A stretch of DNA of 64,000 nucleotides from Halocatena marina. GTDB lineage: Archaea; Halobacteriota; Halobacteria; Halobacteriales; Haloarculaceae. The position numbers and the translations under genes are program-made. The stretch covers positions 186,001 through 250,000 of the forward strand of contig NZ_JALLPK010000004.1 in the NCBI RefSeq assembly GCF_023276375.1. The letters are read 5' to 3'. Each line of letters begins with the position of its first letter. The stretch's first letter is position 1. Positions 33,265 to 61,016 of this stretch are shown one piece after another. Below the pieces are notes generated by a model. That model worked only from the letters and a program-made list of their open reading frames with translations, did not search any database and was not told where the DNA came from.

Positions 33265-33268
33265 CACA

Positions 33269-39455: not shown

Positions 39456-39461
39456 TGGTTA

Positions 39462-43896: not shown

Positions 43897-43909
43897 CAAT
43901 ATTTATAGG
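43897..43909 (+). promoter_or_regulatory. TATA-like promoter of aldehyde dehydrogenase gene
   Basis: caatatttatagg lies about 25-35 bases before the ATG at 43933, the spacing expected for a leaderless or short-leader haloarchaeal promoter. Confidence 0.5.
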
Positions 43910-43932
43910 GCAACTTGGAGAACGAATGAAGC

Positions 43933-45441: not shown

Positions 45442-46089
45442 GCGTGATACGGAGTTGAAGCATCGACTGCACGACGATTCGTTTGTTGCGATCGAGGATA
45501 GATCATTGTTACAGCAACCGAGGGGAGTAGGATTTTGCCATTCGAATCAGGCTCAAGAAGCCATTAAATCGAGATGCTAATGAGCACGGAAAAGCCAGAC
45601 AATGTTGATTTGATAATGGAAAATATCAAACCCATTCCGTTACGATAGTACTGATGTAACGACATCCGCTGAAATGGGTCGATTTCCCCGATAGCACGGC
45701 TATAATTTGGTGACTGCAAATCACTTTGGCGGGCTGTCCGCGGCATTCGATCAGACCCACCGGATCGAACAAACGACTGGCGGCGTAGGCCGTCCACAAC
45801 AGGCGTCTTGCGAGGGTGGGTGTCGTGGACGACGGCGCGCTAAGCGGATTCTCGGAGAATTCGATCCGGTCCACCGACTCCCGATGATGGAACGAAACAC
45901 CCTCTGGAAACGACGTATCGAACGTCAAACGAATGCTGACCGTACCGTCTCGGACACGGATTCGTCATCGGTCACCCCGACGGCATCCGAACTCTCTGGT
46001 GCGGAAGGCCCGTGCGGTCCCTCGGGAACGAACATCGAAGTGGCCCTCCCACAGAAGTGTACCGGAACAAACCCGGTACGTGTTCCCAC
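45442..46089. other. Gene-free stretch
   Basis: No supported gene. Several short frames in both directions have poor composition (for example 45626-45928 on the minus strand). It separates the aldehyde dehydrogenase from the 3' end of the convergent transporter operon. Confidence 0.5.
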
Positions 46090-46914
46090 TCACGCCCGCA
46101 ACGTGAGCTGTTTGAGACTCGTAAGAGAAAGTACCGCTATCAAAATCACTGTGACGAAGACCAAGAAGAACACGCTGATGACGTTCACCATCGGGCTAAA
46201 GCCATACCGGATGAGACCCCACAGGTAGACAGGAAGCGTCTGCATCGCCGTATCGCGGACGAAGTACGTGTAGACGAACTCGTTGAACGAGATGGTAAAC
46301 GCCAGCAGTCCACCGGCGATGATCCCAGGGAGAACGTTCGGCAGGGTGACCCGACGGAACGTCCGAAGCTCGCTCGCACCGAGGTCCATGGACGCTTCTT
46401 CGAGCGTCTGATCAAAATTGACGACCGTCGGAATGATAATCAGCGCGGCGAAGGGCACGGTTCGGATGACGTGAGCGATTACCACCGTCCCGTATCCGGC
46501 ATCAATGTTTACGTTCCCAAAAAACAGCGTCATGGCGATCCCTGTTACGACGAGTGGGACTACGATCGGGAACGTGAGGAACATCTGGAAGAGACCCTTC
46601 CCCGGGAAGTCATACCTCGAAATCCCATAGGCAGAGAGAACCGAGACGAAGACGGTGATCGGTGTCGCGACGAGGCTTACCTTCAGTGATGTTAAGATGG
46701 CGCTTATCGCTTTGGTGTTGCTGAAGAACTCGATGTACCACTTTACCGTGTATGATTCGGGTGGGAACGAGAGTACGCCACTGCCCGCAAAGGACATCAG
46801 TACGACGACTCCGATCGGGAGCCAAATGAGTGCCAAGATGAGAACCATCAATGAGCGTCCTATCGTCTCGCCGTGTCTGTGTGCAATCCGCTCGACGAAG
46901 CTCAGAATTGTCAC
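46090..46914 (-). CDS. ABC permease, PotC-type (spermidine/putrescine-like)
   Basis: A 274-residue permease with six membrane segments. The EAA loop ASMDLGASELRTFRRVTLPN has the usual Glu-Ala-Ser-Met...Gly...Pro pattern of PotC/CysW-type subunits, and the N-terminus (LILALIWLPIGVVVLMSFAG) is typical. Last gene of the importer operon; overlaps the upstream permease by four bases. Confidence 0.9.
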   Translation of the reverse strand: MTILSFVERIAHRHGETIGRSLMVLILALIWLPIGVVVLMSFAGSGVLSFPPESYTVKWYIEFFSNTKAISAILTSLKVSLVATPITVFVSVLSAYGISRYDFPGKGLFQMFLTFPIVVPLVVTGIAMTLFFGNVNIDAGYGTVVIAHVIRTVPFAALIIIPTVVNFDQTLEEASMDLGASELRTFRRVTLPNVLPGIIAGGLLAFTISFNEFVYTYFVRDTAMQTLPVYLWGLIRYGFSPMVNVISVFFLVFVTVILIAVLSLTSLKQLTLRA

Positions 46915-47819
46915 TCCAGGTCACCTCCACTCCTCGTGATCTGCCCGCCAGCACCGTACCACGCTCCGAGCGCGATGAGCGTGACGACGACAACCGTGAC
47001 GACCATGCCGAGGGCCGATCCGAACGGCCAGTTGAACGCCGAGGTGAACTGCTGTTCGATAACCATCCCAATCATAAGGACGTTCGTTCCGCCAAGCAGT
47101 GCCGGGGTGATGAACGAACCGAACGACGGGATGGCAACGAGCACGATACCCGCGATGACGCCGTTTTTCGTGATCGGAAGTGTTACTCTGAAGAATGTTT
47201 TGATAGGGCCAGCGCCGAGATCCTTCGAGGCGTTGATGAGGCTATCGTCCATGTTCGTCAACGATGCATAAAATGGGAGGGTAGCCAGTGGAAGCCATAC
47301 GTATGCGAGCCCCGCAAGCACCGCCGGGTGCGTGTACATGATCCCGCTCGTTTTGCCGGTCAGACCTAGTGTGAGCATCATGGTATCGAGGACACCGCCC
47401 TTCTGGAAGATGTTGATCAGTGCGTACATCCGGACGACGTAGTTGGTCCAAAACGGCAGGATGATCAACATGAGGATGAGCGTTGTTCGCTTCGAGAACC
47501 GCGCGATGCTGTACGCGAGGATATATCCTAGAACCACCACGATAGCGGTTGATTCCGCGGTCAATACCGCCGTCCGCCAGAGAATACTTATGTACAGATC
47601 CCCGGTAAAGATACGGATGTAATGGTCCAGAGAGAAGGCTGACGGCGGCATTTCTTCTAAGAGCGACATCCACAGCATCGACAGGAGGGGAAGAGCGAAA
47701 AACGTCACCAACACACCCACCGGCACCCCGATGAATAGACTCAATCGGAGCCACCGGTTCTCCCGGAAACACTTGACTACCGACACGATGTCCTCGCGAC
47801 CGGAGACGGCGTTTCTCAT
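46911..47819 (-). CDS. ABC permease, PotB-type
   Basis: A 302-residue permease with six membrane segments and EAA loop NASKDLGAGPIKTFFRVTLP. It overlaps both neighbours by four bases (ATGA). Forms the channel with the PotC-type subunit. Confidence 0.9.
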   Translation of the reverse strand: MRNAVSGREDIVSVVKCFRENRWLRLSLFIGVPVGVLVTFFALPLLSMLWMSLLEEMPPSAFSLDHYIRIFTGDLYISILWRTAVLTAESTAIVVVLGYILAYSIARFSKRTTLILMLIILPFWTNYVVRMYALINIFQKGGVLDTMMLTLGLTGKTSGIMYTHPAVLAGLAYVWLPLATLPFYASLTNMDDSLINASKDLGAGPIKTFFRVTLPITKNGVIAGIVLVAIPSFGSFITPALLGGTNVLMIGMVIEQQFTSAFNWPFGSALGMVVTVVVVTLIALGAWYGAGGQITRSGGDLE

Positions 47820-48922
47820 ATGCGGGTGACCTCGTGCTGTTCCTCGTCATACTCAAAGAGGTAGACATCCTCGGGGGGCCACGCGACCGACACTGCGTCG
47901 CCTAGTTCGTAGCTGCTGTCTGCGATGTTGGCGGTGAACGAACCATACTCAGTTTCGATTGTGTAGATGGTCTCCTCACCAGAGTACCCGCGGTTACGGA
48001 CCGTTCCTTCCACGATGAACTGATCTTCGTCGGCGGATTCGACCACCGAGAGTCGCTTCGGGCGGACGCCCAGATAGATATCTGTACCGGGATTCAGCGA
48101 GACGGATTCTATTCGCTGCTTGGACGCGTGTGGAACTTCGAGCGACACCTGATCGGTTTCGATGGTCGCGGCGGTTCCGTTGCTGTCGACGACGGTCCCC
48201 GGCTGGAGGTTGATGTCACCGATGAAACCCGCCACAAACTTTGAGGCGGGGACGTCGTAGATCTCTTCGACTGTTCCAAGTTGCTCCATCTCACCGTCGT
48301 TGAGCACGAGCATACGGTCCGAGACTGCCATTGCGACCTCCTGGTCGTGCGTCACGTAGAGGAACGTAATCCCGGTTTCCTCTTGGATTCGCTGTAGCTC
48401 AAACTGCATGTGCTGGCGCAGTTTGCGATCCAACGACGCGAGCGGTTCGTCGAAGAGCACTATCTGGGGCTCGTTGACGATCGCGCGAGCGAGTGCGACC
48501 CGCTGTTGCTCACCACCGCTGAGCTGATCGGTGCTTCGGTCCTCGTATCCGCTCAGTTCGACTACGTCGAGCATCTCCGAGATCCGTTCTTTCCGCTCAG
48601 ACTTTGGAACACCGTCTTCCTTTAGGCCGTACCCGATGTTTTCTGCGACGGTAAGGTGCGGAAACAGCGCGAGGCTCTGAAACACCATATTCACGTCCCG
48701 GTTGAACGGTGGAACGTCGTTCACCGGGGTGTCCTGGATGGCGATTTCACCAGAGGTTGGGGTTTCGAACCCGGCGACCATCCGGAGGATCGTCGATTTC
48801 CCCGAGCCGGATGGACCGAGAATGGAGACAAACTCACCGTCTTCGACCTGGAAAGAAACATTGTTTACAGCGACGAGACTATCGAACTCTTTGCGTAGGT
48901 TAGAGACTGTCAATATCGACAT
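47816..48922 (-). CDS. ABC transporter ATPase, PotA-type
   Basis: A 368-residue ATPase from the ATG at 48922 (MSILTVSNLRKEF). Walker A GPSGSGKST, Q-loop FQSLALFPH, signature LSGGEQQRVALARAIV, Walker B IVLFDEPLASLDRKLR and a TOBE domain at about 270-360 (IYLGVRPKRLSVVESA). PotA/FbpC family: polyamine, iron or opine-type import. Cotranscribed with the binding protein 20 bases upstream. Confidence 0.9.
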   Translation of the reverse strand: MSILTVSNLRKEFDSLVAVNNVSFQVEDGEFVSILGPSGSGKSTILRMVAGFETPTSGEIAIQDTPVNDVPPFNRDVNMVFQSLALFPHLTVAENIGYGLKEDGVPKSERKERISEMLDVVELSGYEDRSTDQLSGGEQQRVALARAIVNEPQIVLFDEPLASLDRKLRQHMQFELQRIQEETGITFLYVTHDQEVAMAVSDRMLVLNDGEMEQLGTVEEIYDVPASKFVAGFIGDINLQPGTVVDSNGTAATIETDQVSLEVPHASKQRIESVSLNPGTDIYLGVRPKRLSVVESADEDQFIVEGTVRNRGYSGEETIYTIETEYGSFTANIADSSYELGDAVSVAWPPEDVYLFEYDEEQHEVTRI

Positions 48923-48942
48923 CGTTGTGTAGTGTGTGTTTT

Positions 48943-50067
48943 TCAAGCTGCTTTGACCTTTGTCCAGATCTCGTCGAATTTCTTCCGGAAGTCGTCCGGA
49001 AGGGGCTGGATGAACGTCGCCGAGTCTGACATCTTTTGCGGCCAACTGAGGAAATCGATCTTTTCGTTGGAAAGGTCGAGATGGTCGCCGATATTCTTGA
49101 TCGGTGGGAGATACCCCATCGTAGTCACCTTTTTCGTGGCGTTCTGTGGTTTGCTACCCATGTCGGTCCACGCGACGGCCGCATTGGGGTTCGGAGCCCC
49201 CTTCGGGATGACGAACGTATCGTACGTGTACATGAATCCCTCCTTCGTGTTGGACATGTCCATGGAAATCCCCTTCTGGAAGCGTCCGTTGTAGGTTCGA
49301 CCGTCCGTGTACACGGTCGCGACGATCTGTTCGTTCTCGAACATCTGTTGAACGGTCGAATGGTCCTTCCAGTACGTGACGTTCAGGTCCTTCTGTTGGA
49401 TCAGCGCCTCCTCGATTTCCTTGAAGTCGTCCGGGTCGTTCGGATCTTGGCCCGTGTAGAGTGCCGCGATGCGGCAGGCGACTTCGCCCCAGTCCTGCAT
49501 GCTCACCTTCCCTTTGAGATCCGATTGCCAGAGGACGTCCCACGAGCCGGGGTCGTCGTCGAAGTAGTCGGTGCTGTAGGTGAGCGGATGTGCCACTTGA
49601 GCCTCCGGAATGGCGTAGACCGCCCCATTGCGTTGGTAGTATTCTTCGGCGTCCGACTTCGCTAACTCGTTCAGCGCCGACCATCCGTCCATTCGGTCGA
49701 TTGGAAGCGCATGGAGGAAATCGTTGTCCATTGACCGAACGACCCACGCGCTCGTGGCCGAGATACTGTCGATCTCGTCGTTTTCGGCTTCGAGTTTCGT
49801 GTACCACTTGCTGGGGTTCGAGTAGGCGGCAGTCGTCACCGACGTGTCGTACTGTCCCTCGAACTCCTCGACTGCCCAGTTCACCCATCCATCGTACCAG
49901 TTCCACACGTTGAGGTTTTGTTCCAGATTCTCCGGCGGAACGGACCCCGCGTCCACCGGTTTCGCCGGCAAATTCCTGCCACCATCACCCCCGCCGAGAC
50001 AGCCAGCGAGGGAAATAGCGCCACCGGCGAGACCGTACTTGACAAGATTCCGTCTACTTAGCTCCAT
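48943..50067 (-). CDS. Substrate-binding lipoprotein, PotD/PotF-like
   Basis: A 374-residue secreted binding protein. ATG 50067 gives MELSRRNLVKYGLAGGAISL then AGC, a twin-arginine signal with lipobox. The body (LNVWNWYDGWVNWAVEEFEG, FMYTYDTFVIPKGAPNP) resembles PotD/PotF periplasmic binding proteins, and the second half has the usual EEIEEAL-type helices. It determines which ligand the importer takes up. Lies 176 bases downstream of the decarboxylase gene, in the same direction. Confidence 0.88.
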   Translation of the reverse strand: MELSRRNLVKYGLAGGAISLAGCLGGGDGGRNLPAKPVDAGSVPPENLEQNLNVWNWYDGWVNWAVEEFEGQYDTSVTTAAYSNPSKWYTKLEAENDEIDSISATSAWVVRSMDNDFLHALPIDRMDGWSALNELAKSDAEEYYQRNGAVYAIPEAQVAHPLTYSTDYFDDDPGSWDVLWQSDLKGKVSMQDWGEVACRIAALYTGQDPNDPDDFKEIEEALIQQKDLNVTYWKDHSTVQQMFENEQIVATVYTDGRTYNGRFQKGISMDMSNTKEGFMYTYDTFVIPKGAPNPNAAVAWTDMGSKPQNATKKVTTMGYLPPIKNIGDHLDLSNEKIDFLSWPQKMSDSATFIQPLPDDFRKKFDEIWTKVKAA

Positions 50068-50243
50068 GGTATCGAATCCCACGTCTTACGGAATTCTGTC
50101 AAGTATTAATAAAACTTTTGTTAACAATGCTGAGGGATCAGGCGACGTGACGGGCTCTCTCACGTCGAGTTAACGCCGAGGAGCCGACGACATCATGCAG
50201 CCGTCCGCTTCGAACAGTCTGAAAGGAAGTCTGCGGTTGCTCG

Positions 50244-51896
50244 TCAGTCGACCACACGAACGTCGAGCACGGAGGGTCCGTCAGCGTCGACCGCCTCGTC
50301 CAACGCCGTTTCGAGCTTATCGCAGTCGGTGATTCGGCTCCCGGTGACTCCGTAGCTGACCGCGTTGGTGGCGAAATCGACGCCCGGGTGAAGATCCATA
50401 CCGATAAACTCGTGATCATCATCGTCTCCGCCGAGAATCTTCAGCGCGTTGTCTTTTAGAATGCGATAGTTTTGGTTGTTCGAGATGACGACAGTCAGGT
50501 CGAGGTCGTATCGCGCCGCAGTGTACATTGAGTGAGGATAGTACAGATACGAGCCGTCGCCGAGGAGTCCGATTACGGGACGGTCGTCTTCCGCGAGGGC
50601 GGCACCGACAGCCGCGGGAAGGCCGTACCCTAGGCCGCCGGATTTGTTCCCGAACAATTGGCCGGGCTGGAGGTTCCACTCCGACAATAGAGCGTAACGC
50701 GTGGTGACGCTCTCGTCGACGATGTACGCATCTGGCACCGCTTTCTCCATCGTTTCGATCAATTCTGTCTTCGAGATATCATTTGCTCCAGCCGAGGGCG
50801 GTAGCTGCATATTCTTATCGACCCAATCGCAGACTTCCTCAGCCCGCTCGCGACGTGCCACTAACTGCTTATTGCTTACACGTCCGGAGACCCGACGCGT
50901 GAGGTCTTCGATGATCGGGCGCAGTGCGCCCGAGATGGCGACGTCGGCGGGTTCGTTCTTCGCGAGTTCCCAACTGTCATGGCCGATGTGGACGGCCGTC
51001 GCGCTAGACGGTACAAGCGGTTCGTCGTGGGCCAGTGTCGGTGTGTGCGTCGAACAACCGATGAGAACGACTGCGTCCGTCTCGTGGAGTGCCCTCGCTT
51101 CCGCGAACGACTCAGGCATATGCGAGACCCACAGCTCATGGTCCATCGGGAAGTTCACTTCCGTGGATAGAATCTCGCTGTGGACGCGTGCGCCGGTCTC
51201 CTCAGCCAGTTCGGTCACCGCTTTGACCGTGCGCTGACCATCACGGGCGATCTGATCGCCGACAACGAGCATCGGTTCGTCAGCCTCGGTCAGAATGTCG
51301 GCCGCCTGCGCGATCGCATGAGAGTCGCCGCGGCCGCCGTTCGGAACTCCGCCGAGCGGTTCGATAGGTGCGTCTGTCTCCTCAATCATCACGTCCATGG
51401 GAAGCGCGAGGAAGACCGGTCCCATCGGGGGCGCCAGTGCCACCTTGCATGCGCGACGAAGCATCGTGGGTAGTGATTCGACCGCCTTGACTTCGGCGCT
51501 CCACTTGGTGAATTGTTGGGTCATCTCCACGAGATTGCCGTACAGTATCGGCTCCTCGTGCTGATGGCACATACTGTGGGTGCCAGCGGTGACCACGACC
51601 GGTGCGCCGGAAACACTCGCGGCGTATAGATTCCCTAGACCGTGTGCCATTCCCGGGGCAACGTGGAGATTGACGACTCCGAGCGGATGCTCGGCGCCTC
51701 GTTGCCGTCGGGTACATGCGTATCCGGCAGCCATTCCCACGGCGATATCCTCCTGTAGCCCGAGGATGTAGTCGACCGAACTTCCTTCGAGGGCACTCAT
51801 CACGGGCACTTCGGTTGTTCCGGGGTTCCCGAAGAGATATGGGATCTCATACGTCTCCAACACTTTGACAAATAGGTCCGCTCCAGTTCGTATCAT
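50244..51896 (-). CDS. ThDP-dependent 2-oxo-acid decarboxylase (benzoylformate decarboxylase-like)
   Basis: A 550-residue three-domain ThDP enzyme. FGNPGTTEVP puts T27 where benzoylformate decarboxylase has its catalytic Ser26; E49 in LQED is the ThDP-activating glutamate; H78 in VVNLHVAPG matches the catalytic His70. The Mg-ThDP motif is LLGDGSYLYY (GDG 446-448) to NNQNY (NN 473-474). It would remove CO2 from a 2-oxo acid to give an aldehyde. Acetolactate-synthase-like activity cannot be excluded. First gene of the importer operon, divergent from IclR. Confidence 0.8.
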   Translation of the reverse strand: MIRTGADLFVKVLETYEIPYLFGNPGTTEVPVMSALEGSSVDYILGLQEDIAVGMAAGYACTRRQRGAEHPLGVVNLHVAPGMAHGLGNLYAASVSGAPVVVTAGTHSMCHQHEEPILYGNLVEMTQQFTKWSAEVKAVESLPTMLRRACKVALAPPMGPVFLALPMDVMIEETDAPIEPLGGVPNGGRGDSHAIAQAADILTEADEPMLVVGDQIARDGQRTVKAVTELAEETGARVHSEILSTEVNFPMDHELWVSHMPESFAEARALHETDAVVLIGCSTHTPTLAHDEPLVPSSATAVHIGHDSWELAKNEPADVAISGALRPIIEDLTRRVSGRVSNKQLVARRERAEEVCDWVDKNMQLPPSAGANDISKTELIETMEKAVPDAYIVDESVTTRYALLSEWNLQPGQLFGNKSGGLGYGLPAAVGAALAEDDRPVIGLLGDGSYLYYPHSMYTAARYDLDLTVVISNNQNYRILKDNALKILGGDDDDHEFIGMDLHPGVDFATNAVSYGVTGSRITDCDKLETALDEAVDADGPSVLDVRVVD

Positions 51897-52019
51897 GCTC
51901 TGACGTATCGGGATCAGTGTGAGCCTTCATTTATGTTCCGCTTGGGCAATCTTCGAATTTCGCGTATCGTCTTTTGGTTATCACAAATATTTATCCAGTG
52001 GTACGGGTATGTGGCATAC
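51897..52019. promoter_or_regulatory. Divergent promoter region, IclR / decarboxylase operon
   Basis: 123 bases hold both promoters. On plus, caaatatttatcc (51983-51995) is about 25-35 bases before the iclR ATG. On minus, cataaatg (51929-51936 region) is about 35 bases before the decarboxylase start. Between them, CGAA-T-TTCG (51953-51963 area, atcttcgaatttcgcg) is a small inverted repeat that could be an IclR site. Confidence 0.5.
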
Positions 52020-52814
52020 ATGGCCAAAGGCGGCAATCGGCGGCGGGTCAAGTCGGTCGATACAGCCTGCAAACTGATCCGTGCGATGCAAGAGCGGGGT
52101 TCAACGACTATCTCGGAGTTGAGTGAGGCGATTGACCTATCGGAGGGTTCCGTACACACACACTTGGCGACGCTGAAATCCCACGGACTCGTCGTGAAAA
52201 ACGGGACCATCTACGAACTGGGGCCCCAGTTCGTCCCGCTTGGAGAGCGAGTAAAACACAACTCGAAGCTCTATCAGGCGGCGAAAAAGGAGGTCGATGG
52301 TATCGCGGACGAAACCGGCGAGTGCGTGCACCTTTTAATCGAGAACAACGGACAAGGAATTATTCTCTACGAATCATTCGGAAAGAGGGCAGTTGGAACA
52401 AAGTTCCACTCTCGATCCCGAGAGATGCCAGCGGAGTATCTCCACTGCCGCGCGTCGGGAAAGGCCATCCTCGCGTACCTTTCAGCCAGCCGCGTACACG
52501 ACATCATCGATAAATATGGGCTCAAGGAGATGACAGAGGAGACGATCACGGACTGCGAGGAACTCTTCGACGAACTGGCCGCCACACGCTCGTGCGGGTA
52601 CGCGTTGAACGATGAGGAGGAACTGCGCGGTGTACGCGCGGTGGGAGTTCCAATACTGGACGACGAGGAGAAACCGCTTGGCGCAATCAGCCTCTCAGCA
52701 CCTCGAAGCCGGCTGGACGGAGAGGCCTTCACCGACGAGATTCCCAAGCTTTTGATAAGCACGGCCAATGTTATCGAAATAAACTATCAGACGGACGATC
52801 TGGACATCAACTAA
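52020..52814 (+). CDS. IclR-family transcription regulator
   Basis: A 264-residue regulator from the ATG at 52020 (MAKGGNRRRVKSVDTACKLI). An N-terminal winged helix (TISELSEAIDLSEGSVHTHL, TLKSHGLVVK) and a C-terminal effector domain (ECVHLLIENNGQGIILYESF, HCRASGKAILAYL, DDEEKPLGAISLSAP) are all present. IclR proteins bind a small catabolic ligand and control divergent operons. Its placement beside the decarboxylase/importer operon makes that operon the first candidate target. Confidence 0.9.
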   Translation: MAKGGNRRRVKSVDTACKLIRAMQERGSTTISELSEAIDLSEGSVHTHLATLKSHGLVVKNGTIYELGPQFVPLGERVKHNSKLYQAAKKEVDGIADETGECVHLLIENNGQGIILYESFGKRAVGTKFHSRSREMPAEYLHCRASGKAILAYLSASRVHDIIDKYGLKEMTEETITDCEELFDELAATRSCGYALNDEEELRGVRAVGVPILDDEEKPLGAISLSAPRSRLDGEAFTDEIPKLLISTANVIEINYQTDDLDIN

Positions 52815-52857
52815 TTCATGGCAAATGCTTAAGTGGGGTCCTTTTGAGTGTCTTTTC

Positions 52858-54315
52858 ATGGCAAGTGAGCTGAGCGCACAGCTATACGTCGACGGTAATT
52901 GGTGCAGTTCGAGCGGCGACTCCGAGATCATCAGCCGGAATCCGGCGGCACCGAACGAAGAGGTAGCCACGTTTCCGGCCGCAACGGTCACTGACACCGA
53001 AGATGCGATCTCGGCGTCAGTCGCTGCGCAGGACGAGTGGGCCGCGGTGTCCAGTCACGAACGGGGATCGTATCTGCGGGACGCGGTTCGGATTATCGAG
53101 GACGAAAGGGAGTTTCTCAGCCGATTAATCGTCGATGAGGCAGGCAAGACGATTGGTGGAAGTCAGGGTGAGATCCAGCGAACGATCGATCTCCTGGAGT
53201 ACTATGCACAGGTCGCACGCGACTACGGCGGTACCGCACCCCCGAGCGCGACCGACGGGACAGTCCTGTTCACGAAGCGTGAGCCGTTAGGGACCGCGGG
53301 AATCATCACGCCGTGGAATTTTCCGATTGCGATCCCGACATGGAAGATCGTTCCCGCTCTCGTGAGTGGGAACACGGTCGTCTTTAAGCCCGCCTCGCTC
53401 TCACCGACAATCGCGTCTCGGCTCGTCGACGTGTTTGACCGGGTCGGGCTCCCGGATGGTGTCTTGAACTTCGTTCCCGGATCCGGAAGCACAGTCGGCG
53501 ACGCAATAGCGACGAGTCAGAATATCGATGTGCTTTCGTTCACCGGCAGCACCGCGGTGGGCGAGGCTGTGAAGAGGGCTGCAGGCGAGACAGGCGCACG
53601 GGTACAGTGTGAGATGGGCGGGAAAAACCCGATCATCGTCGACGAAAGCTGTGACCTCGATCTGGCTGTCGATTTGACGATAAGCGGCGCCTACAGTCTG
53701 GCGGGACAGGCCTGCACGGCCGCGAGTCGAGCGATCGTGTTGGAGGGAGCCTACGACGAGTACGTCGCCGCCCTCAAACAGCGCGTTGAGCATCTCATCG
53801 TCGGAGAACCGGGGGACGAAACAACGGATATGGGTCCGAAAGCATCCGCAGGCGGATTGCAGGAGGATCTCGACTACATCGAAGCGGGCGAAGGTGAGGG
53901 TGCGACGCTCCTGGCGGGAGGGTCGGCACTCGACCGCGAGGGGCACTTCATCGAGCCGACGGTCTTCGTCGACGTCGACTCGGAAATGAAGATCGCGCAA
54001 GAGGAGATCTTCGGTCCGATCCTATCGGTTCTCTCGGTCTCGAGCTTCGACGAGGCGGTTCGAGTCGCAAACGACGTGCAGTACGGACTGACTGCCGCCA
54101 TCTGTACTGACCGACTTCACCACGCGATGTCTTTTATCGATGACATCGAGACAGGTGTCGTGAAGGTCAACCAGAAACCCGGCGGAGTCGAATACCAGAT
54201 GCCGTTCGGTGGACGGAAGCGTTCGAGCACGGAGACGTTCAAAGAGCAGGGACGCGAGGCTCTGGAGTTTTTCACACATCAAAAGGCAATCTATCTCACC
54301 GATGGGCACGTCTGA
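52858..54315 (+). CDS. NAD(P)-dependent aldehyde dehydrogenase, copy 2
   Basis: A 485-residue aldehyde dehydrogenase: ITPWNFPIAIPTWKIVPALV, FTGSTAVGEAVKRA, CEMGGKNPIIV (Glu) and LAGQACTAASRAIV (catalytic Cys). It resembles semialdehyde or benzaldehyde-type dehydrogenases such as 2,5-dioxovalerate dehydrogenase; the specificity is not certain. It follows iclR on the same strand with 43 bases between. It and the copy at 43933 are clearly different genes. Confidence 0.92.
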   Translation: MASELSAQLYVDGNWCSSSGDSEIISRNPAAPNEEVATFPAATVTDTEDAISASVAAQDEWAAVSSHERGSYLRDAVRIIEDEREFLSRLIVDEAGKTIGGSQGEIQRTIDLLEYYAQVARDYGGTAPPSATDGTVLFTKREPLGTAGIITPWNFPIAIPTWKIVPALVSGNTVVFKPASLSPTIASRLVDVFDRVGLPDGVLNFVPGSGSTVGDAIATSQNIDVLSFTGSTAVGEAVKRAAGETGARVQCEMGGKNPIIVDESCDLDLAVDLTISGAYSLAGQACTAASRAIVLEGAYDEYVAALKQRVEHLIVGEPGDETTDMGPKASAGGLQEDLDYIEAGEGEGATLLAGGSALDREGHFIEPTVFVDVDSEMKIAQEEIFGPILSVLSVSSFDEAVRVANDVQYGLTAAICTDRLHHAMSFIDDIETGVVKVNQKPGGVEYQMPFGGRKRSSTETFKEQGREALEFFTHQKAIYLTDGHV

Positions 54316-54413
54316 GACGCCGCGAGGGGTCTTCAGGCGTCTCTCGTGAGTGGACGGACGAAACACCCGACCAGACGCAACGTTTTTGCACCTTGTCGAC
54401 ACACCACAATAGC

Positions 54414-55700
54414 ATGGGTACAAACTCGCTTACGGCGGCGTACGATGAAGAGCTAAAGCGTTTCGTCGAGAGATTCCTCCGGTTTGAATCGAGCAGCGGT
54501 CGCGAAAAGCAGGCACAGGAATGGTTCGAAGAGCAACTCGAAGCGCTTGGGTTCAAGACGTACCGGTGGGAGGTCGGTGCGGAGCAGCTCGCTTCGCTTC
54601 CGTCGTTCCCATCGGCTGACGAAATAGATGCCACGGACCGACCCAGCGTGGCGGGCGTGCTTGAATTTGGTGACCCGGAAGCTGGTCCCACAATGGTTCT
54701 CAACGGACACGTCGACGTAGTGCCTGCCACCGACGCCTCTTGGGAGACGGATCCATTCGAACCGCACTGGGACGGCGAGAAACTGCACGCGCGGGGAGCG
54801 GCAGACATGAAGACGAACCTTGCGTTACTCGTTTTCGTCGCGAAGTATCTCCATGATGAGTACGCCGATGAAATCGACGGGCGAGTGGTCGTCGAAAGCG
54901 TCACGGGCGAGGAGGAAGGTGGGATCGGAGCACCCGCGGCGGCGCTGTCTAACCCCTACCCGTTCGACCGAGACGCGGCAATCATCACGGAGCCCACCGA
55001 CCGACGAGTCGTGACGGCGACGGCGGGCGTGTTAATGAAAGAGCTGACCGTTTCTGGACGCTCGGCGCACGCTGCGACCCGGTGGCGCGGTGAGTCCGTG
55101 CTTCCACATTTCAATCGCATCCATCGAGCGTTCGAAGAACTCGAACGGGAGCGCCACGAGCGGATCGCGCACTCGCTGTACGACTACCCAGTGAACTGGC
55201 CGATGAACGTCGGTGTCGTCGACGCGGGCGACTGGGCCTCGAACGTACCGGCGCGTCTGACGGCGCAGATTCGGATTGGGTTCGCCCCGTCGGAGACGCT
55301 CGAAACCGTGGAGGCGAAGTACGAGGAGCGCCTTCAGAGTGTCGTCGCGGACAGTGAGTGGCTAACGGACCATCCGCCGACATTTGAACGGCGGGCCATT
55401 CACTTTGAACCCTCCGAACTCGAAGCGGACAGTCCGATCGTCCAGCGACTCCAGTCGGCCATGCTCGACCACGGCATCGAAGAGACGGAACCGATCGGGA
55501 AAACCTACAGCTCCGATTCTCGTTTCTACATCGCAGAGGGGATTCCAACGGTCATTTTCGGTCCGGGGACGATCGATCAAGCGCACTTCCCCAACGAGTT
55601 CATTCGCTGGTCGGATGTCCAGCAGGCGGGCGACGTGCTTGTCGACACCTGTAAGGCGTATCTACAGGACCCCGGCTCGACCCCCGAACGCTCGGAGTGA
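54414..55700 (+). CDS. M20 peptidase/deacylase (ArgE/DapE-type)
   Basis: A 428-residue M20 metallohydrolase. VLNGHVDVVPA, GAADMKTNLAL (metal-binding Asp), GEEEGG (catalytic Glu and metal Glu) and the final QAHFPNEFIR (metal His) form the dinuclear zinc site; the dimerisation lid is at about 205-320. The family removes acyl or amino groups from N-acylated amino acids and dipeptides. ATG 54414 (MGTNSLTAAY) is preferred. Third gene on the plus strand after iclR and the aldehyde dehydrogenase. Confidence 0.88.
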   Translation: MGTNSLTAAYDEELKRFVERFLRFESSSGREKQAQEWFEEQLEALGFKTYRWEVGAEQLASLPSFPSADEIDATDRPSVAGVLEFGDPEAGPTMVLNGHVDVVPATDASWETDPFEPHWDGEKLHARGAADMKTNLALLVFVAKYLHDEYADEIDGRVVVESVTGEEEGGIGAPAAALSNPYPFDRDAAIITEPTDRRVVTATAGVLMKELTVSGRSAHAATRWRGESVLPHFNRIHRAFEELERERHERIAHSLYDYPVNWPMNVGVVDAGDWASNVPARLTAQIRIGFAPSETLETVEAKYEERLQSVVADSEWLTDHPPTFERRAIHFEPSELEADSPIVQRLQSAMLDHGIEETEPIGKTYSSDSRFYIAEGIPTVIFGPGTIDQAHFPNEFIRWSDVQQAGDVLVDTCKAYLQDPGSTPERSE

Positions 55701-55782
55701 GCCCACGTCGGCCGCTCGGCTGCCAGTCCGTCCGCCCGGTTTCCCCCGCCCACGATCGAGTACGCTGACCGACGGATTTATT

Positions 55783-55801
55783 GTGACACTCGTAATCACA
55801 C
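55783..55801. promoter_or_regulatory. Inverted repeat TGTGA-N9-TCACA before aminotransferase
   Basis: Perfect 5-base arms, overlapping the end of a TATA-like run (gatttattgtg) and ending 6 bases before the aminotransferase ATG. The position fits a repressor site that blocks transcription start. Confidence 0.45.
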
Positions 55802-55807
55802 CAGTAT

Positions 55808-57088
55808 ATGGGCTCGCAACCAGCTCAGTTTATGCCAGCGGTATCGAGATTCATCGGAGAGGACACACCGTGTCTCATCGAGGGAGACGGTGCGATCCTC
55901 AAAGACGACGAAGGAAACGAGTACATCGACTTCTTCGCACAGCACGCCGCGATGTCTCACGGCTACTCGCATCCGAAGGTGGTCGACGCCGTGACAGAGC
56001 AGGTCGAGAAGCTGAACTTCAGTGCGTACGACTTCCCGACTGAGCCGAGCCGCCGACTCACGAACCGGTTTGCTGACGTCGCCCCTGGCGACCTCGAACG
56101 GTCGTACTTCGTCAACTCCGGATCGGAGGCCGTAGAGGTCGCGCTGACGCTCGCCCGGCGGGCGACGGGCAACCACGAGTTCGTCGCCCTGGGTGAGGCG
56201 TTTCACGGGCGCACCTATGGTGCTCGCTCGCTCGTTGGGTGGTCCGGCTATCGAGACGGCTTCGGGCCGTTTCTGCCGTCTGTAACTCACATCCCATCGT
56301 ACAACTGCGATTCGTTCCCCGGCAGCGCGGAGCCGGAAACCGGAGCCGAGTACGCAGAACTGCTCGAATATGCGCTCGAATACGAGACGGGCGACGTCGC
56401 CGCATTCATCGCTGAACCGATGTTGGGAACAGCGGGAAACATCCCTGCTCCAGCAGGATATTTCCAGCGAATCCGAGAGATTTGCGACGAATACGATATC
56501 CTATTCATCGCCGACGAGGTCATCACCGGGTTCGGCCGCACCGGAAAGCCGTTCGGTATCCAACACTACGATGTCACACCGGACATTATGACGACAGCGA
56601 AGGCGATCGGCGGCGGAATGCCAATCGGGGCGACGATCGCAACCTCCGAGGTGGCCGACGCCTTCGAGAGCATGGATTACTTCTCGACATTCGGCGGAAA
56701 CCCGGTCTCGACTACGGCAGCGGCCGCGAGCATCGACGTAATGGTGGAGGAGAAACTCGCGGAGCAGGCCGCCAAACTGGGCGACAGCTTCGTGGACCGC
56801 CTCCGAACGCTACAGAGCGACTATCCGTTCGTTGGCGAAATCAGAGGCAAGGGGCTGATGATCGGGGTCGAACTCGTCGATGAGGACGGAGCGCCGCTCA
56901 AAAAAGAGCACAGTCTCACCCTGCGGCGTGACGCCATCGAGCGAGGTCTCATCCTGCCCGCTGGACAGGGCTGGGAAGGCAACGTCATTCGTATCAACCC
57001 GCCGCTCGTCATCTCCGAAGACGAACTTGACCGAGGTATCGACATCATGGATGAGTGCTTTGAGGAACTCACTACCCGCCTCGACTGA
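55808..57088 (+). CDS. Class III (omega) aminotransferase
   Basis: A 426-residue PLP aminotransferase. K265 in TTAKAIGGGMPIG is the PLP lysine, IADEVITGFGRTG the cofactor Asp/Val region and FVNSGSEAVEVALTLARRAT the phosphate loop. Closest in appearance to alanine-glyoxylate aminotransferase 2, 4-aminobutyrate and dialkylglycine-type enzymes. It moves an amino group from an amine or amino acid to a 2-oxo acid. It has its own promoter (inverted repeat at 55783-55801). Confidence 0.9.
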   Translation: MGSQPAQFMPAVSRFIGEDTPCLIEGDGAILKDDEGNEYIDFFAQHAAMSHGYSHPKVVDAVTEQVEKLNFSAYDFPTEPSRRLTNRFADVAPGDLERSYFVNSGSEAVEVALTLARRATGNHEFVALGEAFHGRTYGARSLVGWSGYRDGFGPFLPSVTHIPSYNCDSFPGSAEPETGAEYAELLEYALEYETGDVAAFIAEPMLGTAGNIPAPAGYFQRIREICDEYDILFIADEVITGFGRTGKPFGIQHYDVTPDIMTTAKAIGGGMPIGATIATSEVADAFESMDYFSTFGGNPVSTTAAAASIDVMVEEKLAEQAAKLGDSFVDRLRTLQSDYPFVGEIRGKGLMIGVELVDEDGAPLKKEHSLTLRRDAIERGLILPAGQGWEGNVIRINPPLVISEDELDRGIDIMDECFEELTTRLD

Positions 57089-57276
57089 TCGAAAGACGGT
57101 GACCGACCCAGAGCCCGCCTCAGCCGATCGGAAATTCCCGGTAGCCGCATGTCGTGCTGCTAAGGGGGAAATGGACGCCGCCAGAGGATACTGGCGCTGT
57201 CAGTCATGGCGATACATCCCGAACCACGCGTCGGACTGAAGTGGGCCTCGTCGTGTCCAGAAGCGCCGCGTTCGCA

Positions 57277-58047
57277 TTATTCGCCGAGCAGTTCAAGGAC
57301 CGATTCGACGGCCGACGAATCCGATCCAGTGGCACGGAACTCACAGCCGATATAGCCGTCGTAGCCAGCGTCCGCGAGACTCCCGATGATTCGTTCGTAG
57401 TTCAGTTCGCCCGTCCCGGGCTCGTTGCGTCCGGGGACGTCTGCAACGTGGACATGTCCGATCCGGTCGAGATTTGTCCGCATCGTGTCGATGATGTTGC
57501 CCTCCGTGATTTGCTGGTGGTAGACATCATAAAGCAGTCTCACCCGCGGGCTATCTAACTCGTCGACCACGTCAAACCCCGTCTTCGACCGACTGAGAAA
57601 CGCTTCTGGGTGATCGATGGCGGTGTTGAGTGGTTCGAGAAGGAGCGTAACGCCCGCTTCCTCGGCGGCGGGTGCGACCGTGTTGAGGGTGTCGACGACG
57701 TTGTCGTACTGCGTCTGCCACCCTCGGGACTCACACTCCGGCCCGGACGTTACGATGAGGTTCTCACAGCCAACTGCCGTTGCAGTCTCGATCGTCGACC
57801 GCAATTCATCGACCGTGTGGTCCCGAGCGTCGGGGTCCGTGAGACCGGTCGTACAGCCAACCATGCCAACGAACGCGAGATCGTTCGTCGCGGTTCGCTC
57901 GCGGACCTCCCGAAGGGGTCGGTCCGACGGTTCCCAGAACTCGACGCCGCCGACGCCGAGCTCGGCGCAGCGGTCGATCCGATCGACGAACGGGTCGTCG
58001 GTAAAGAGCGTGTCCAAACACACTGAAAGGGTAGGAAAGTTTGTCAT
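57277..58047 (-). CDS. Sugar-phosphate isomerase/epimerase (hydroxypyruvate isomerase-like)
   Basis: A 256-residue xylose-isomerase-like TIM barrel. LLLEPLNTAIDHPEAFLSRS carries a metal-ligand Glu and LLYDVYHQQITEGNIIDTM the Asp/His pair; GHVHVADVPGRNEPGTGELN and YIGCEFRATGS complete the site. Similar to hydroxypyruvate isomerase and other small epimerases. Convergent with the aminotransferase, divergent from the Gfo/Idh gene. A dead relative lies at 43435. Confidence 0.82.
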   Translation of the reverse strand: MTNFPTLSVCLDTLFTDDPFVDRIDRCAELGVGGVEFWEPSDRPLREVRERTATNDLAFVGMVGCTTGLTDPDARDHTVDELRSTIETATAVGCENLIVTSGPECESRGWQTQYDNVVDTLNTVAPAAEEAGVTLLLEPLNTAIDHPEAFLSRSKTGFDVVDELDSPRVRLLYDVYHQQITEGNIIDTMRTNLDRIGHVHVADVPGRNEPGTGELNYERIIGSLADAGYDGYIGCEFRATGSDSSAVESVLELLGE

Positions 58048-58114
58048 AGCAGGTCGTCAGGGTTCTCTGCGGCGGCGAGGTATATAGAACTCACGTCTGA
58101 GAGAAGTACCCAAA

Positions 58115-58124
58115 ACGTTATACC
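58115..58124 (+). promoter_or_regulatory. TATA-like promoter of Gfo/Idh gene
   Basis: cgttataccg, about 25-34 bases before the ATG at 58149, supporting that start over the ATG at 58128. Confidence 0.45.
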
Positions 58125-58148
58125 GAGATGAATAGTCGATTAGCCCGT

Positions 58149-59114
58149 ATGTCAGTCCGGACTGCCTTTATCGGAGCAGGCGGTATAGCGTCGGTACACC
58201 TGTCAAACATCGAAGCGTCTGACCTCGGCGACGTCGTGGCGATCTGTGACATCGATCCGTCCGTGGCCGAAAGCACAGCAGAGACGCACGCTGCCGCCGC
58301 GTTTACCGACGCGAAAGCGCTGTTCGAGGAGGCGGAGTTTGACGCGGTGATCGTCTCGATTCCGCCGTTCGCCCACGGCGAGGCCGAGCGGCTTGCAGCG
58401 AAGCACGAAACCCACCTATTCGTCGAGAAGCCGCTTGGTCTCGACCGGACGCCCGCGGAGACCATCGACGCCGCGGTCACCGAGGCGGGCGTCATTACGC
58501 AGGTCGGTCACATGAATCGATACGCCGACATCGTCGAGAGAGCGGTCGAGCTAATTGACGGTCGACAGGTTTCCCTCGTCAACGGACACTGGTACGACGG
58601 CGTGGCAGACGCCGCATGGTGGCGGAAGAAAGCGCAGTCGGGCGGACAGGTGGTCGAGCAGTCGACGCATGTCTTTGACCTCGTGCGATATTTCGCGGGG
58701 GACGTAGACGAACTTCACGCGTACGGTGAAAAGCAAGTAGTCGGGGACCGAATCGACTTTGAGGACTCGGTCGTCGCGACGATGCATCATGAAACGGGCG
58801 CGGTGAGCCACGTCGCAACGAGCTGTGCGTCGCCTCGATACCGCACCGCGGTGGACGTCATCGGCGACGGCTTCGACTTGCAGCTAAACTTCAACGAGAA
58901 CCGCTTGACGGGCGTCGTCAACCAGCAGGACGTAGCATACGAGGGGAACGGCGAGAAGTACCGAAACGAACTGGAAGCGTTTCTGACCGCCGTCTCGAAC
59001 GACGAGCGGTCGCTAGTTCGATCGCCCTATTCGGACGCCATAAAGACGTTCGAGGCGACGCTCGACGTCTATGAGGCGATCGCCGATAAGACACCTGTCG
59101 AAGCCAAGCGCTGA
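58149..59114 (+). CDS. Gfo/Idh/MocA-family oxidoreductase
   Basis: A 321-residue NAD(P)-dependent dehydrogenase. RTAFIGAGGIASVHLSNIEA is the N-terminal Rossmann glycine loop, VEKPLGLDRTPAETI contains the conserved EKP, and VVEQSTHVFDLVRYFAGDVD carries the catalytic His-x-x-Asp region. The family oxidises sugars, inositols or cyclic polyols. Divergent from the isomerase gene with a 101-base shared promoter region, so the two may form a small sugar-type branch. Confidence 0.88.
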   Translation: MSVRTAFIGAGGIASVHLSNIEASDLGDVVAICDIDPSVAESTAETHAAAAFTDAKALFEEAEFDAVIVSIPPFAHGEAERLAAKHETHLFVEKPLGLDRTPAETIDAAVTEAGVITQVGHMNRYADIVERAVELIDGRQVSLVNGHWYDGVADAAWWRKKAQSGGQVVEQSTHVFDLVRYFAGDVDELHAYGEKQVVGDRIDFEDSVVATMHHETGAVSHVATSCASPRYRTAVDVIGDGFDLQLNFNENRLTGVVNQQDVAYEGNGEKYRNELEAFLTAVSNDERSLVRSPYSDAIKTFEATLDVYEAIADKTPVEAKR

Positions 59115-59308
59115 ACTGGACGCTGTCCGGAAGCGAAACGGACGCCAAAAATTTTAGATATCGTTGTCGTGTTAAAATAATGAATGACAAATTCAAACTG
59201 TCTTTCTTGTCCGAGTCCAGAGCGCCCGCGTGTGCGATGATAGAAGACCTGAGTACGCCCGCCTGGTTAGAACGACTTCGCGACGTTTCGGGAAACGGGA
59301 GTTTCCGA

Positions 59309-60406
59309 TCACCACTTGGGCGACGGCGCGGTCCGTATCGAGGGACGAATGCTTCGTATCGATTCGATCCGTTTTTTCGCGAGTTCCGTAGCAACGTGTT
59401 GTGGCGGACGTCCCTGACGTTCCGCACATCTACCGACTTCGCACATCTGATTTTTGATACGCCGTAGGTATTCGAGCACGCGCTGATGGCTGTACCCCCC
59501 CTGGCGGAGGAGGTCTGTGTGCTCGATGATGGTCCCCGAACTCGCGAGGAAGTCGGGGGCATGGAGGACGCCCGCGTCGGCGAGCCGAACGGCATCCAGA
59601 GGGGAGTCGAACTGGTTGTTCGCCGGGCCACAGACGATCTCACAATCAAGTCGCGGGATGGTATCGGCGTTCAAGACGCCCCCAAGTGCCGCGGGGACGA
59701 ACACGTCGCAGTCGACGGCGTGTACCGACTTTGGATCCACCGCACCGACGTGCAACTCGTCGGTGAGACGGTCAACCCGTTCTCGGTCAATATCGGCGAT
59801 CGTCACCTGTGCACCCTGTCGAGAGAGATACCGGACGACGTGTTCCCCCATCTCACCGATGCCCTGAACCGCGACGTGGCGGTCGCCGAGGTCGTCGGAG
59901 CCGAAGACCAACTCACAACAACCTGCCATCGCATTGATTACACCAAGGCCGCCTGCGTGAAAGAAGTCGTCGGTCGGTCGGGGAAACTGTTCCGGCAACC
60001 CGGTCACGTACTCCGTCTCCTGACTCATCCACCGGAGACACTCTTTGTCGGTTCCGATGTCGCTGCCGGTGATGAACCGTCCGTCGAAGCTATCGACCAC
60101 GCGCGCGTACGACCGATACAGCGCTTCGCTTCGCTGCTTTCCGGAATCTACCCAGATGACTCCCTTGGCCCCGCCCATGTCGATTCCGGCTAGAGCGTAC
60201 TTGTAGGTCATTGCCTTGGCGAGACGTAGTACGTCCTCAAGTGCGTCCTCCTCGGACGCGTACGCGTACCGCCTCGTACCGCCGCCCGCGGGGCCGAGCC
60301 GAGTGTCGTGTAGCGCAATGATTCCATTCAGTCCGACCTTCTCGTCGCGGAAGAACCGGACTTCGCTGGCGTCATACTCCGAGAGTAAATCTGTCGTCGA
60401 AGTCAT
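59309..60406 (-). CDS. Leu/Phe/Val-type amino acid dehydrogenase
   Basis: A 365-residue Glu/Leu/Phe/Val dehydrogenase family enzyme. GPAGGGTRR is the substrate loop, K69 (AMTYKYALAG) and K81 (MGGAKGVI) are the substrate and catalytic lysines, and FITGSDIGT has the catalytic Asp. VAVQGIGEMGEHVVRYL is the NAD-binding loop. The smaller size favours leucine or phenylalanine dehydrogenase over glutamate dehydrogenase. It would interconvert an amino acid and its 2-oxo acid with ammonia. TATA-like gaatatataacc precedes the ATG by about 30 bases. Confidence 0.88.
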   Translation of the reverse strand: MTSTTDLLSEYDASEVRFFRDEKVGLNGIIALHDTRLGPAGGGTRRYAYASEEDALEDVLRLAKAMTYKYALAGIDMGGAKGVIWVDSGKQRSEALYRSYARVVDSFDGRFITGSDIGTDKECLRWMSQETEYVTGLPEQFPRPTDDFFHAGGLGVINAMAGCCELVFGSDDLGDRHVAVQGIGEMGEHVVRYLSRQGAQVTIADIDRERVDRLTDELHVGAVDPKSVHAVDCDVFVPAALGGVLNADTIPRLDCEIVCGPANNQFDSPLDAVRLADAGVLHAPDFLASSGTIIEHTDLLRQGGYSHQRVLEYLRRIKNQMCEVGRCAERQGRPPQHVATELAKKRIESIRSIRPSIRTAPSPKW

Positions 60407-60530
60407 GTAGACATTAGCTCACAAGGGAGGAGGTTATATATTCTTATTCAACCGTTCAGAGGCCACAGCGAGACTTGATCGGGCGAGCTCGCATCGTAAT
60501 GTATTAGTTTCAGTTTTGTGTTTCTATCAT

Positions 60531-61016
60531 GTGATTCGAGCTTACACGCCCGAAACGGACAGCAATGCACTATGGGAATTGAAACGGCAGTTCGAGTTGG
60601 AACTCGGCGGCAACACGGGGGGAGAGGAAAAATCGACCAAGTACCGGGATAAGGTTGATGAGGTGTATCGAGACCGCTATCTGGACTGGGCGGAGAGGTG
60701 TGTCGAGTCTGATCCCGGATGTATCAGTATCGCCGAGGAAGGCGACAGCGTCGTTGGATACGCGTTCGTGCTCCCGGAGAATCTTGCGATGATCTGGGAC
60801 GCTGCGGTCCTCAACGAAATTTTCATAGCAAAATCACACCGTGGGACCGGGATCGCCGATGATCTGATGCAGCGCGTCCTCGGAACGGCCAAAGAACAGG
60901 ACCTCCCCTTGGATCGGTTGCTGTTGGACGTGGATAGTGATAACGGGCGTGCTCAGGCGTTTTACAACCGATACGGGTTCGAAAAGTGGGGTGACCTGGT
61001 CGCTCAGTCACTTTAG
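60531..61016 (+). CDS. GNAT-family N-acetyltransferase
   Basis: A 161-residue acetyltransferase from the GTG at 60531 (MIRAYTPETDS). LNEIFIAKSHRGTGIADDLM is the acetyl-CoA motif A (R-x-x-G-x-G/A type), followed by LDVDSDNGRAQAFYNRYGFE, the usual motif B. The acceptor is unknown. Head-to-head with the amino acid dehydrogenase. A TTG five codons earlier is a weaker start. Confidence 0.85.
   Translation: MIRAYTPETDSNALWELKRQFELELGGNTGGEEKSTKYRDKVDEVYRDRYLDWAERCVESDPGCISIAEEGDSVVGYAFVLPENLAMIWDAAVLNEIFIAKSHRGTGIADDLMQRVLGTAKEQDLPLDRLLLDVDSDNGRAQAFYNRYGFEKWGDLVAQSL

Follow-up and report, generated by a model that had tools for sequence, protein, structure and literature searches.

A 64,000-base window of the Halocatena marina genome (bases 186001-250000 of contig C4, which has 387,616 bases in a 5.3 Mb genome of 7 contigs) was analyzed, and all positions below are those of this window. 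It contained a block of about 17 kb (43562..61005), running from an aldehyde dehydrogenase (ALDH) gene to a GNAT N-acetyltransferase gene, which is probably an accessory and laterally mobile catabolic island. The limits were set by colinearity with a copy on contig G065:C2, from a genome of the same order but of a different family (f4), and by a G+C step at both ends. In 1-kb steps the G+C content was 0.55-0.61 from 44 to 61 kb, and it was lower in the flanks (0.42-0.53 between 40 and 44 kb, 0.47-0.49 between 61 and 64 kb). A preliminary description of this DNA had placed the island at 46090-60406. The genes that it named were all found as long open frames of the claimed families, but the shared block was larger, and the second of the two ALDHs that it had counted, at 43933-45441, sat to the left of that range. 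Two divergent operons started from one shared stretch of about 120 bases: the gene of a thiamine diphosphate (ThDP)-dependent enzyme followed by potDABC to the left, and the genes of an IclR regulator, an ALDH (ALDH2), an M20 deacylase and a class III aminotransferase (AT3) to the right. Motifs in the window were located by string match, and those that we take to be the Walker and signature motifs of the ABC ATPase, the EAA loops of the permeases, the aminotransferase lysine, the ALDH cysteines and the M20 metal-ligand motifs were all present. Gene calls in the loci of other genomes came from a small script based on codon usage, for which the window was the training set, and not from a published gene finder, and families given below as "by eye" were assigned by reading the sequence.

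The leftward operon, on the minus strand, encoded a ThDP-dependent 2-oxo acid decarboxylase similar to benzoylformate decarboxylase (50244..51896), a PotD-type substrate-binding protein (48943..50082), a PotA-type ATPase (47816..48946) with presumed Walker A/B and signature motifs, and PotB-type (46911..47819) and PotC-type (46090..46914) permeases, both recognized by profile matches and the presumed EAA motif. All four importer proteins scored below the curated Pot models (TIGR01187, 339.0 of 355.6 bits; PotB, 196.2 of 348; PotC, 157.7 of 326; PotD, 40.2 of 582). The binding protein was a distant relative of PotD/PotF, and its best match among the putrescine/spermidine-binding proteins of PDB reached 50 bits. 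Alignment with the residues of PotD that presumably contact the amine showed that D64 and D288 corresponded to the acidic E36 and D257, that W34 was kept, that W255 was replaced by Thr, and that D168/E171 were out of register. D64 and D288 were also present in the binding protein of Halopenitus. The partly kept contact acids would suit a ligand with an amino group, without naming it. In the ThDP enzyme, the three domains N, M and C (PF02776, PF00205 and PF02775) were over their cut-offs, and the residues E49 and H78, which had been claimed as conserved, were in place and invariant in an alignment of seq­uences from the window and six relatives (7 in all). The best PDB match was 4q9d (195.1 bits), and the benzoylformate decarboxylase model PRK07092 (NF005485) gave 323.1 bits against a cut-off of 493. 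Ser26 of benzoylformate decarboxylase, which we take to be catalytic, was absent, and Thr27 was found in the motif GNPGTTE of the island enzyme. An acetolactate synthase was disfavoured by the score of TIGR00118 (188.6 of 538.35 bits).

In the divergent control region (51897..52016), alignment with the G065 copy showed two conserved boxes rich in A+T, which look TATA-like by eye. The IclR-family regulator (52017..52814, plus strand; PF01614 and HTH_IclR; best NCBIfam match BhcR, 134.5 of 350 bits) had a frame open from 51933. The start at 52017 is likelier because the G065 copy was conserved around the A+T-rich boxes and started at the matching point. On the same strand followed ALDH2 (52825..54315), a dehydrogenase of the dicarboxylic-semialdehyde type. 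It was nearest to 2,5-dioxovalerate/alpha-ketoglutarate-semialdehyde dehydrogenases, with 599.2 bits against the cut-off of 750 of NF052305 (haloarchaeal 2,5-dioxovalerate dehydrogenase) and 526.8 of 770 for NF042993; a PDB search at the single threshold of E 1e-110 gave no match. The M20 deacylase (54414..55700) belonged to the ArgE/DapE family (TIGR01910, 222.8 bits, above the cut-off of 217.6), and AT3 (55808..57088) was a class III, omega-type aminotransferase (PF00202, 367.6 bits).

A window-type AT3 was found in 5 of the 392 genomes of the order (E<=1e-150), distributed over families f1, f4 and f7. All five carried M20 and IclR genes within a few kb, and the ThDP enzyme was found in four of them and ALDH2 in three; Pot genes were present in four, those of G065 being decayed. 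PotD was matched in 28 of the 392 genomes (E<=1e-40) and M20 in 167 (E<=1e-90). The surroundings of the importer were scored for 30 of the 35 listed potD matches, with five copies in G377, G100 and G212 left out; these 30 regions are not independent, since several share a genus or even a genome. At set identity limits and no more than 10 kb from potD, the amide hydrolases were M20 (11 regions), a second M20 type (4), a histone deacetylase (HDAC)-like deacetylase (8) and a carbamoylase-like amidase (6), the aminotransferases were of class I (12), AT3 (3) or another class III type, AT3b (3), and the ThDP enzyme (8), a GlcD-like protein (6) and ALDH2 (1) were found as well. The HDAC-like neighbour matched histone/lysine deacetylases and acetylpolyamine amidohydrolases. 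Some amide hydrolase was present in 18 regions, some aminotransferase in 18, and at least one of both in 25; three of the five regions with neither were contig pieces shorter than 8 kb. In contrast, neither was found under the same limits in any of 14 control regions of 16-22 kb, which had been picked, not at random, because they carried a chromosomal gene for a ThDP enzyme or for glutaryl-CoA dehydrogenase. The difference between 25/30 and 0/14 makes an N-acyl amino acid or amine the likely substrate. The co-occurrence that the preliminary description had proposed to look for in other haloarchaea was thus found: the importer, ThDP enzyme, IclR, deacylase and aminotransferase were grouped across three families, and the gene content, partly with its order, recurred in other families of the order. 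The grouping is not due to chance.

A maximum-likelihood tree of 49 ThDP enzymes placed those of the window, G065, Halopenitus malekzadehii, G177, G104 and G132 in one clade (support 91/90). These six genomes belonged to families f1, f4 and f7, and every member of the clade lay near Pot and/or M20 genes, while the chromosomal ThDP paralogue of the window genome fell outside it, with the genes of its relatives. The label "pot/M20 cluster", which was set by us before the tree was made, required 3 changes on the tree compared with 10.1 for shuffled labels, and none of 500 shuffles reached so low a number. G324, G050 and G053/G097, which also bore the label, were outside the clade of the window. 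Some labels may be missing, since only about 1.5 kb of flank was seen for 28 of the 38 unlabelled rows and one unlabelled row was identical to a labelled one. Among the genomes of the unlabelled rows, a listed potD match was found only in G047, on another contig; the copy of G050 was the identical row.

These distributions also bear on whether the genes share a pathway at all. The importer-ThDP genes, the N-acyl amino acid genes and the sugar genes could be separate modules gathered at a plasmid hot spot, and three loci agree with this: G357 had IclR-AT3-ALDH2-M20 without Pot genes or the ThDP enzyme (20 kb seen), Halopenitus had ThDP-potDABC without M20 or AT3 (20 kb seen), and most of the importer was lost in G065. 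However, the ThDP enzyme, Pot and M20 genes were found together, in rearranged order, in several genera, the ThDP enzymes shared one clade, and both operons of the window started from a single region of about 120 bases, so that unconnected modules are an unlikely explanation.

Two related clusters were accompanied by genes that may serve the use of glutarate. In G132, a member of the ThDP clade of the window, the order was CoA-transferase, glutaryl-CoA dehydrogenase, AT3b, M20, ThDP enzyme, potDABC, HDAC-like protein, a second class III aminotransferase and carbamoylase-like amidase, with AT3b, the dehydrogenase and the CaiB-type transferase all within 7.2 kb of potD. The transferase was nearest to succinate-glutarate CoA-transferase (378.3 of 750 bits). 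The best PDB matches of the dehydrogenase were ten distinct sequences (445-404 bits), of which nine bore the name glutaryl-CoA dehydrogenase; the next match was at 279 bits, and a further chain of that name (3mpi) reached only 211. In G324 the trio lay 10-14 kb from potD, behind potCBAD, the second M20 type (M20b), the ThDP enzyme, an HDAC-like protein, another M20b and an amidase. The dehydrogenase of the trio was one of two gene copies in both genomes. AT3b, which was matched in 106 of 293 genomes, adjoined glutaryl-CoA dehydrogenase in 8 of its best 30 loci (flanks of at most 1.5 kb), G132 among them. A glutaryl-CoA dehydrogenase-type gene was found in all 26 genomes searched, including that of the window, where it is chromosomal. 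Three of the eight loci, from family f7 (L225, L226 and L228), were examined more closely: an AT3b-type aminotransferase was directly followed by glutaryl-CoA dehydrogenase and flanked by an AsnC/Lrp-like regulator (by eye) and an APC-type permease (186 of 557 bits). This conserved haloarchaeal unit resembles an operon for the catabolism of lysine or 5-aminovalerate. A further observation was made at L244 7876-18033 (G000:C1), where an AT3b-like aminotransferase (68%) stood beside biotin-carboxylase-like, PxpB/PxpC/PxpA-like and molybdenum-hydroxylase-like genes (by eye), a group which suggests lactam use.

As a whole, the block is tentatively best explained as an island for an N-acyl amine or amino acid, with N6-acetyllysine as our best guess for the substrate. 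We infer the substrate, the order of the steps, the co-regulation of the genes and the roles of ALDH1, of a leucine-dehydrogenase-like enzyme of the ELFV (Glu/Leu/Phe/Val) family and of the GNAT protein as follows. The importer would take up an amine or amino acid that was N-acylated beforehand or would be acylated in the cell. Either the ELFV dehydrogenase or an aminotransferase from the chromosome would convert the omega-N-acyl diamino acid, most likely N6-acetyllysine, to its 2-oxo acid, and the ThDP enzyme would decarboxylate this to 5-acetamidopentanal, which one of the ALDHs would oxidize to 5-acetamidopentanoate. M20 would then strip the acetyl group to give 5-aminopentanoate, AT3 would turn this into glutarate semialdehyde, and ALDH2 would oxidize the semialdehyde to glutarate, which would be activated with CoA and passed to the chromosomal glutaryl-CoA dehydrogenase. 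Except for CoA activation and glutaryl-CoA dehydrogenation, each step could be assigned to island genes of a fitting family (ThDP enzyme, ALDHs, M20, AT3 and ELFV). Since ALDH2 was nearest to semialdehyde dehydrogenases and G357 kept IclR-AT3-ALDH2-M20 without the ThDP enzyme and Pot, deacylation, omega-transamination and semialdehyde oxidation appear to form one block, with the ThDP step upstream. The processing of an N-acyl omega-amino acid by M20, AT3 and ALDH2 would be the smallest unit to explain the core, and the ThDP enzyme and the second ALDH would supply it from a 2-oxo acid. More specifically, the island may encode a plasmid-borne, laterally moving archaeal route, equipped with a Pot-type importer and an IclR switch of its own, for the degradation of acylated lysine via 5-acetamidopentanal and 5-aminopentanoate to glutarate. 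The acylated lysine would be free N6-acetyllysine or would arise when the GNAT protein of the island acetylates lysine; this full form of the route is rather doubtful.

Several results weigh against the N6-acetyllysine route. Neither glutaryl-CoA dehydrogenase nor a CoA-transferase was present in the island itself, and the trio was found beside the cluster in two genomes of one family only. The nearest relative of the G132 CoA-transferase in the window genome was 42% identical, compared with 64-69% in G065, G177 and G104, and a CoA-transferase for glutarate is a real gap in the window genome; the nearest relative of the HDAC-like protein was likewise 44% identical, compared with 63-65% in the same three genomes. 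The AT3 of the window was another class III enzyme than AT3b (about 35% identical), its best PDB match was a broad-specificity amino-acid racemase (265.4 bits), and relatives of AT3b (62%) sat in a chromosomal ectoine-like cluster, so that the AT3b type is neither lysine-specific nor diagnostic. M20 enzymes of the ArgE kind usually act on alpha-N-acyl groups, and the similarity of the ELFV protein was to leucine dehydrogenases. ALDH1 may belong to a sugar branch, because it follows a sugar isomerase in G065. The clusters of G104 and G177 contained no ALDH2-type gene, and the ThDP enzyme of G324 was outside the clade of the window. An inverted-repeat scan of eight intergenic stretches matched only between potD and the ThDP gene; a palindromic IclR operator was therefore rejected, and no operator shared by these stretches was found. 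The AlphaFold model of the ThDP enzyme, built with 7 sequences, had a mean predicted local distance difference test score of 48.6 and was too poor for use.

Some of these points lead back to the order of steps proposed in the preliminary description, in which an N-acyl alpha-amino acid would be imported and freed of its acyl group by M20; deamination would follow, by an aminotransferase or the ELFV dehydrogenase, then decarboxylation to an aldehyde by the ThDP enzyme and oxidation by an ALDH. This order is somewhat less probable and stays a rival, above all because class I aminotransferases replaced AT3 in many relatives (12 of the 30 importer regions, five of them with M20 too) and because the ELFV gene of the island was leucine-dehydrogenase-like. 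The assignment of M20 to the ArgE/DapE family, over its cut-off, and the closeness of the ThDP enzyme to benzoylformate decarboxylase agree with it as well. However, it gives no clear role to the omega-type aminotransferase or to one of the ALDHs, ALDH2 was nearest to dicarboxylic-semialdehyde dehydrogenases, and G357 had AT3-ALDH2-M20 in the absence of the ThDP enzyme. The glutaryl-CoA dehydrogenase trio near the clusters of G132 and G324 led us to favour the N6-acetyllysine-type route over this order.

A C4 version of the route, from N-acetylornithine or N-acetylputrescine through gamma-aminobutyrate (GABA) and succinate semialdehyde to succinate, would fit the Pot-type importer, the HDAC-like or acetylpolyamine-amidohydrolase-like neighbours and the second-best PDB match of AT3, a GABA aminotransferase (258.5 bits, after the racemase). 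It is improbable, as the ThDP step would have no role for diamines and the acyl-CoA enzymes found by related clusters were the glutaryl-CoA dehydrogenase/CoA-transferase trio, succinate-specific genes not having been searched for. Ectoine degradation is a far less probable reading. An M24 hydrolase, an M20 deacylase, a class III aminotransferase and an ALDH would correspond in kind to DoeA, DoeB2, DoeD and DoeC, by family assignments that we partly presume, and an M24 gene was found at 62693. This gene lay outside the island and did not match TIGR02993, so ectoine degradation was rejected for want of the hydrolase DoeA in the cluster; the ThDP enzyme would also be left unexplained, and a better ectoine-like cluster was found on the chromosome of the same genome. 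The latter, ectoine/hydroxyectoine-like, extended over G000:C1 ~1872129-1883905 (L242 8129-19905) and encoded a DoeA-like protein (469 of 613 bits), a weakly DoeB2-like M20, an EutB-like dehydratase, two class III aminotransferases, an ALDH similar to succinate-semialdehyde dehydrogenases and a BCCT transporter. All 15 haloarchaea searched had DoeA-like genes that scored 441 bits or more without reaching the cut-off, and matches below the cut-off were also obtained with this model in 14 of 14 control genomes.

Outside the two operons, ALDH1 (43933..45441, plus strand) was of the betaine-aldehyde/aminobutyraldehyde type (PF00171, 549.7 bits; best NCBIfam match TIGR01804, 505.8 of 668.6). To the right of AT3 were a hydroxypyruvate-isomerase-like TIM barrel (57277..58047, minus strand; PF01261; TIGR03234, 165.6 of 353.45) and a Gfo/Idh/MocA oxidoreductase (58128..59114, plus strand; profile matches). 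The earlier suggestion that these two may form a separate branch looks right: behind Gfo/Idh in G065, sugar-type ABC transporter genes (by eye) stood between it and ELFV. Both were rejected as core genes. Among 41 loci, no isomerase was found apart from that of the G065 copy, where Gfo/Idh was present too; Gfo/Idh also gave one weak match (24%, L131), and one more Gfo/Idh-like protein was recognized by eye in L121. The ELFV amino acid dehydrogenase (59309..60406, minus strand) matched leucine dehydrogenase 6acf at 285.7 bits. Its relatives (E<=1e-80) occurred in 9 of 293 genomes, of which, apart from the window, only the G065 copy was close (84%), and three of eight more distant relatives adjoined 2-oxo acid dehydrogenase E1-like genes (by eye). 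The GNAT N-acetyltransferase (60516..61016, plus strand; PF00583, 54.8 bits) was kept in the G065 copy (81% over 161 amino acids). At the left end, a remnant of a TIM-barrel sugar isomerase (about 43400..43640, plus strand; by eye) was intact in G065 as an open frame (L125 939-1685).

The G065 copy kept the gene order, and its nucleotide pieces, which ran from 43562 to 61005, were 77-83% identical to the window, with one further 120-base piece at 75%. In this copy, window positions 46723-49885 (part of potC, potB, potA and most of potD) were deleted, ALDH1 was broken over two frames, and about 4 kb with the sugar-type transporter separated Gfo/Idh from ELFV. As a yardstick, the glutaryl-CoA dehydrogenase genes of the two genomes were 76.0% identical over 1,166 bases. 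The island is barely more similar than this one core gene, and the case for lateral spread is therefore the patchy distribution and not the identity. No match to the potD (E<=1e-40), M20 (E<=1e-90) or AT3 (E<=1e-150) of the window was found in the same-species genome G299 (98% complete), which marks the region as accessory. The island ends, 43101-43700 and 60851-61500, had no 11-mer in common, direct or inverted. A glycosidase gene (41587) and the M24 peptidase gene (62693) were excluded as members because they lay outside the limits of the shared block, and the latter appears to belong to an adjoining peptide-transporter/M24 cluster (by eye). Directly left of the island, a stretch of low G+C (0.42-0.47) at 36408-43275 encoded an MGH1-like glycosidase and, by eye, a sugar-type ABC transporter. 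To its right, L182 6693-18722 (G000:C4 ~248.7-260.7 kb) held three M24-type peptidases, that at 62693 recognized by Pfam and the other two by tblastn similarity and TIGR02993 matches, and a dipeptide-type ABC transporter (by eye). Farther away, 27545-33853 encoded a sulfur-type cluster of two rhodanese/metallo-beta-lactamase proteins, a TauE-like exporter and a DsrE-like protein.

The enzyme families of the island are known, and the new part is their combination. A narrow search of the open-access literature found no archaeal description of such a gene set; two haloarchaeal papers that name lysine degradation did so, in the portions available, as KEGG categories or as the lysine dehydrogenase route and not as an acetyl-lysine route (PMC5958107, PMC6048260). 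The unit of importer, decarboxylase and N-deacylase offers a testable entry, with one regulator, two operons and only a few enzymes. Under the acetyl-lysine reading, if it is true, the turnover of acetylated lysine would be tied to central carbon, and a route with acyl-protected amines would stand beside the gamma-glutamyl one of Pseudomonas (PMC8274714).

The island shares with the PotABCD polyamine importers the gene set, the fold family and, in part, the acids at the presumed amine-contact positions, but its proteins were below the curated Pot cut-offs and the binding aromatic W255 was Thr. The ThDP enzyme resembles benzoylformate decarboxylase of the mandelate pathway in its three domains, active-site Glu and His and best PDB match, and differs from it in T27 for Ser26, the lower model score (323.1/493) and other gene neighbours. 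The ectoine Doe/Eut system uses M20, class III aminotransferase and ALDH families too, whereas the island lacks an ectoine hydrolase and has the ThDP enzyme and Pot importer instead. An engineered chain of lysine oxidase, keto-acid decarboxylase and ALDH yields 5-aminovalerate from lysine without acetyl protection (PMC7900509), an artificial version of the chemistry in the first half of the proposed route. In the bacterial 5-aminovalerate/glutarate branch, an aminotransferase and a dehydrogenase, GabT and GabD of E. coli, similarly carry 5-aminovalerate towards glutarate, but no ThDP decarboxylase or deacylase takes part as far as the excerpted account goes (PMC6265302), and the final steps in the window genome would be chromosomal. 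For yeasts, a route of lysine degradation via N6-acetyllysine is described, with a transamination, decarboxylation of the 2-oxo acid, oxidation of the aldehyde, removal of the acetyl group, an omega-transamination and oxidation of the semialdehyde to glutarate; no paper on this route was found in the same narrow search. The island would use the same kinds of enzymes, but yeast has no importer operon. If this reading is true, the island would encode the prokaryotic equivalent of the yeast route and would serve to recycle acetyl-lysine from protein turnover in brines.

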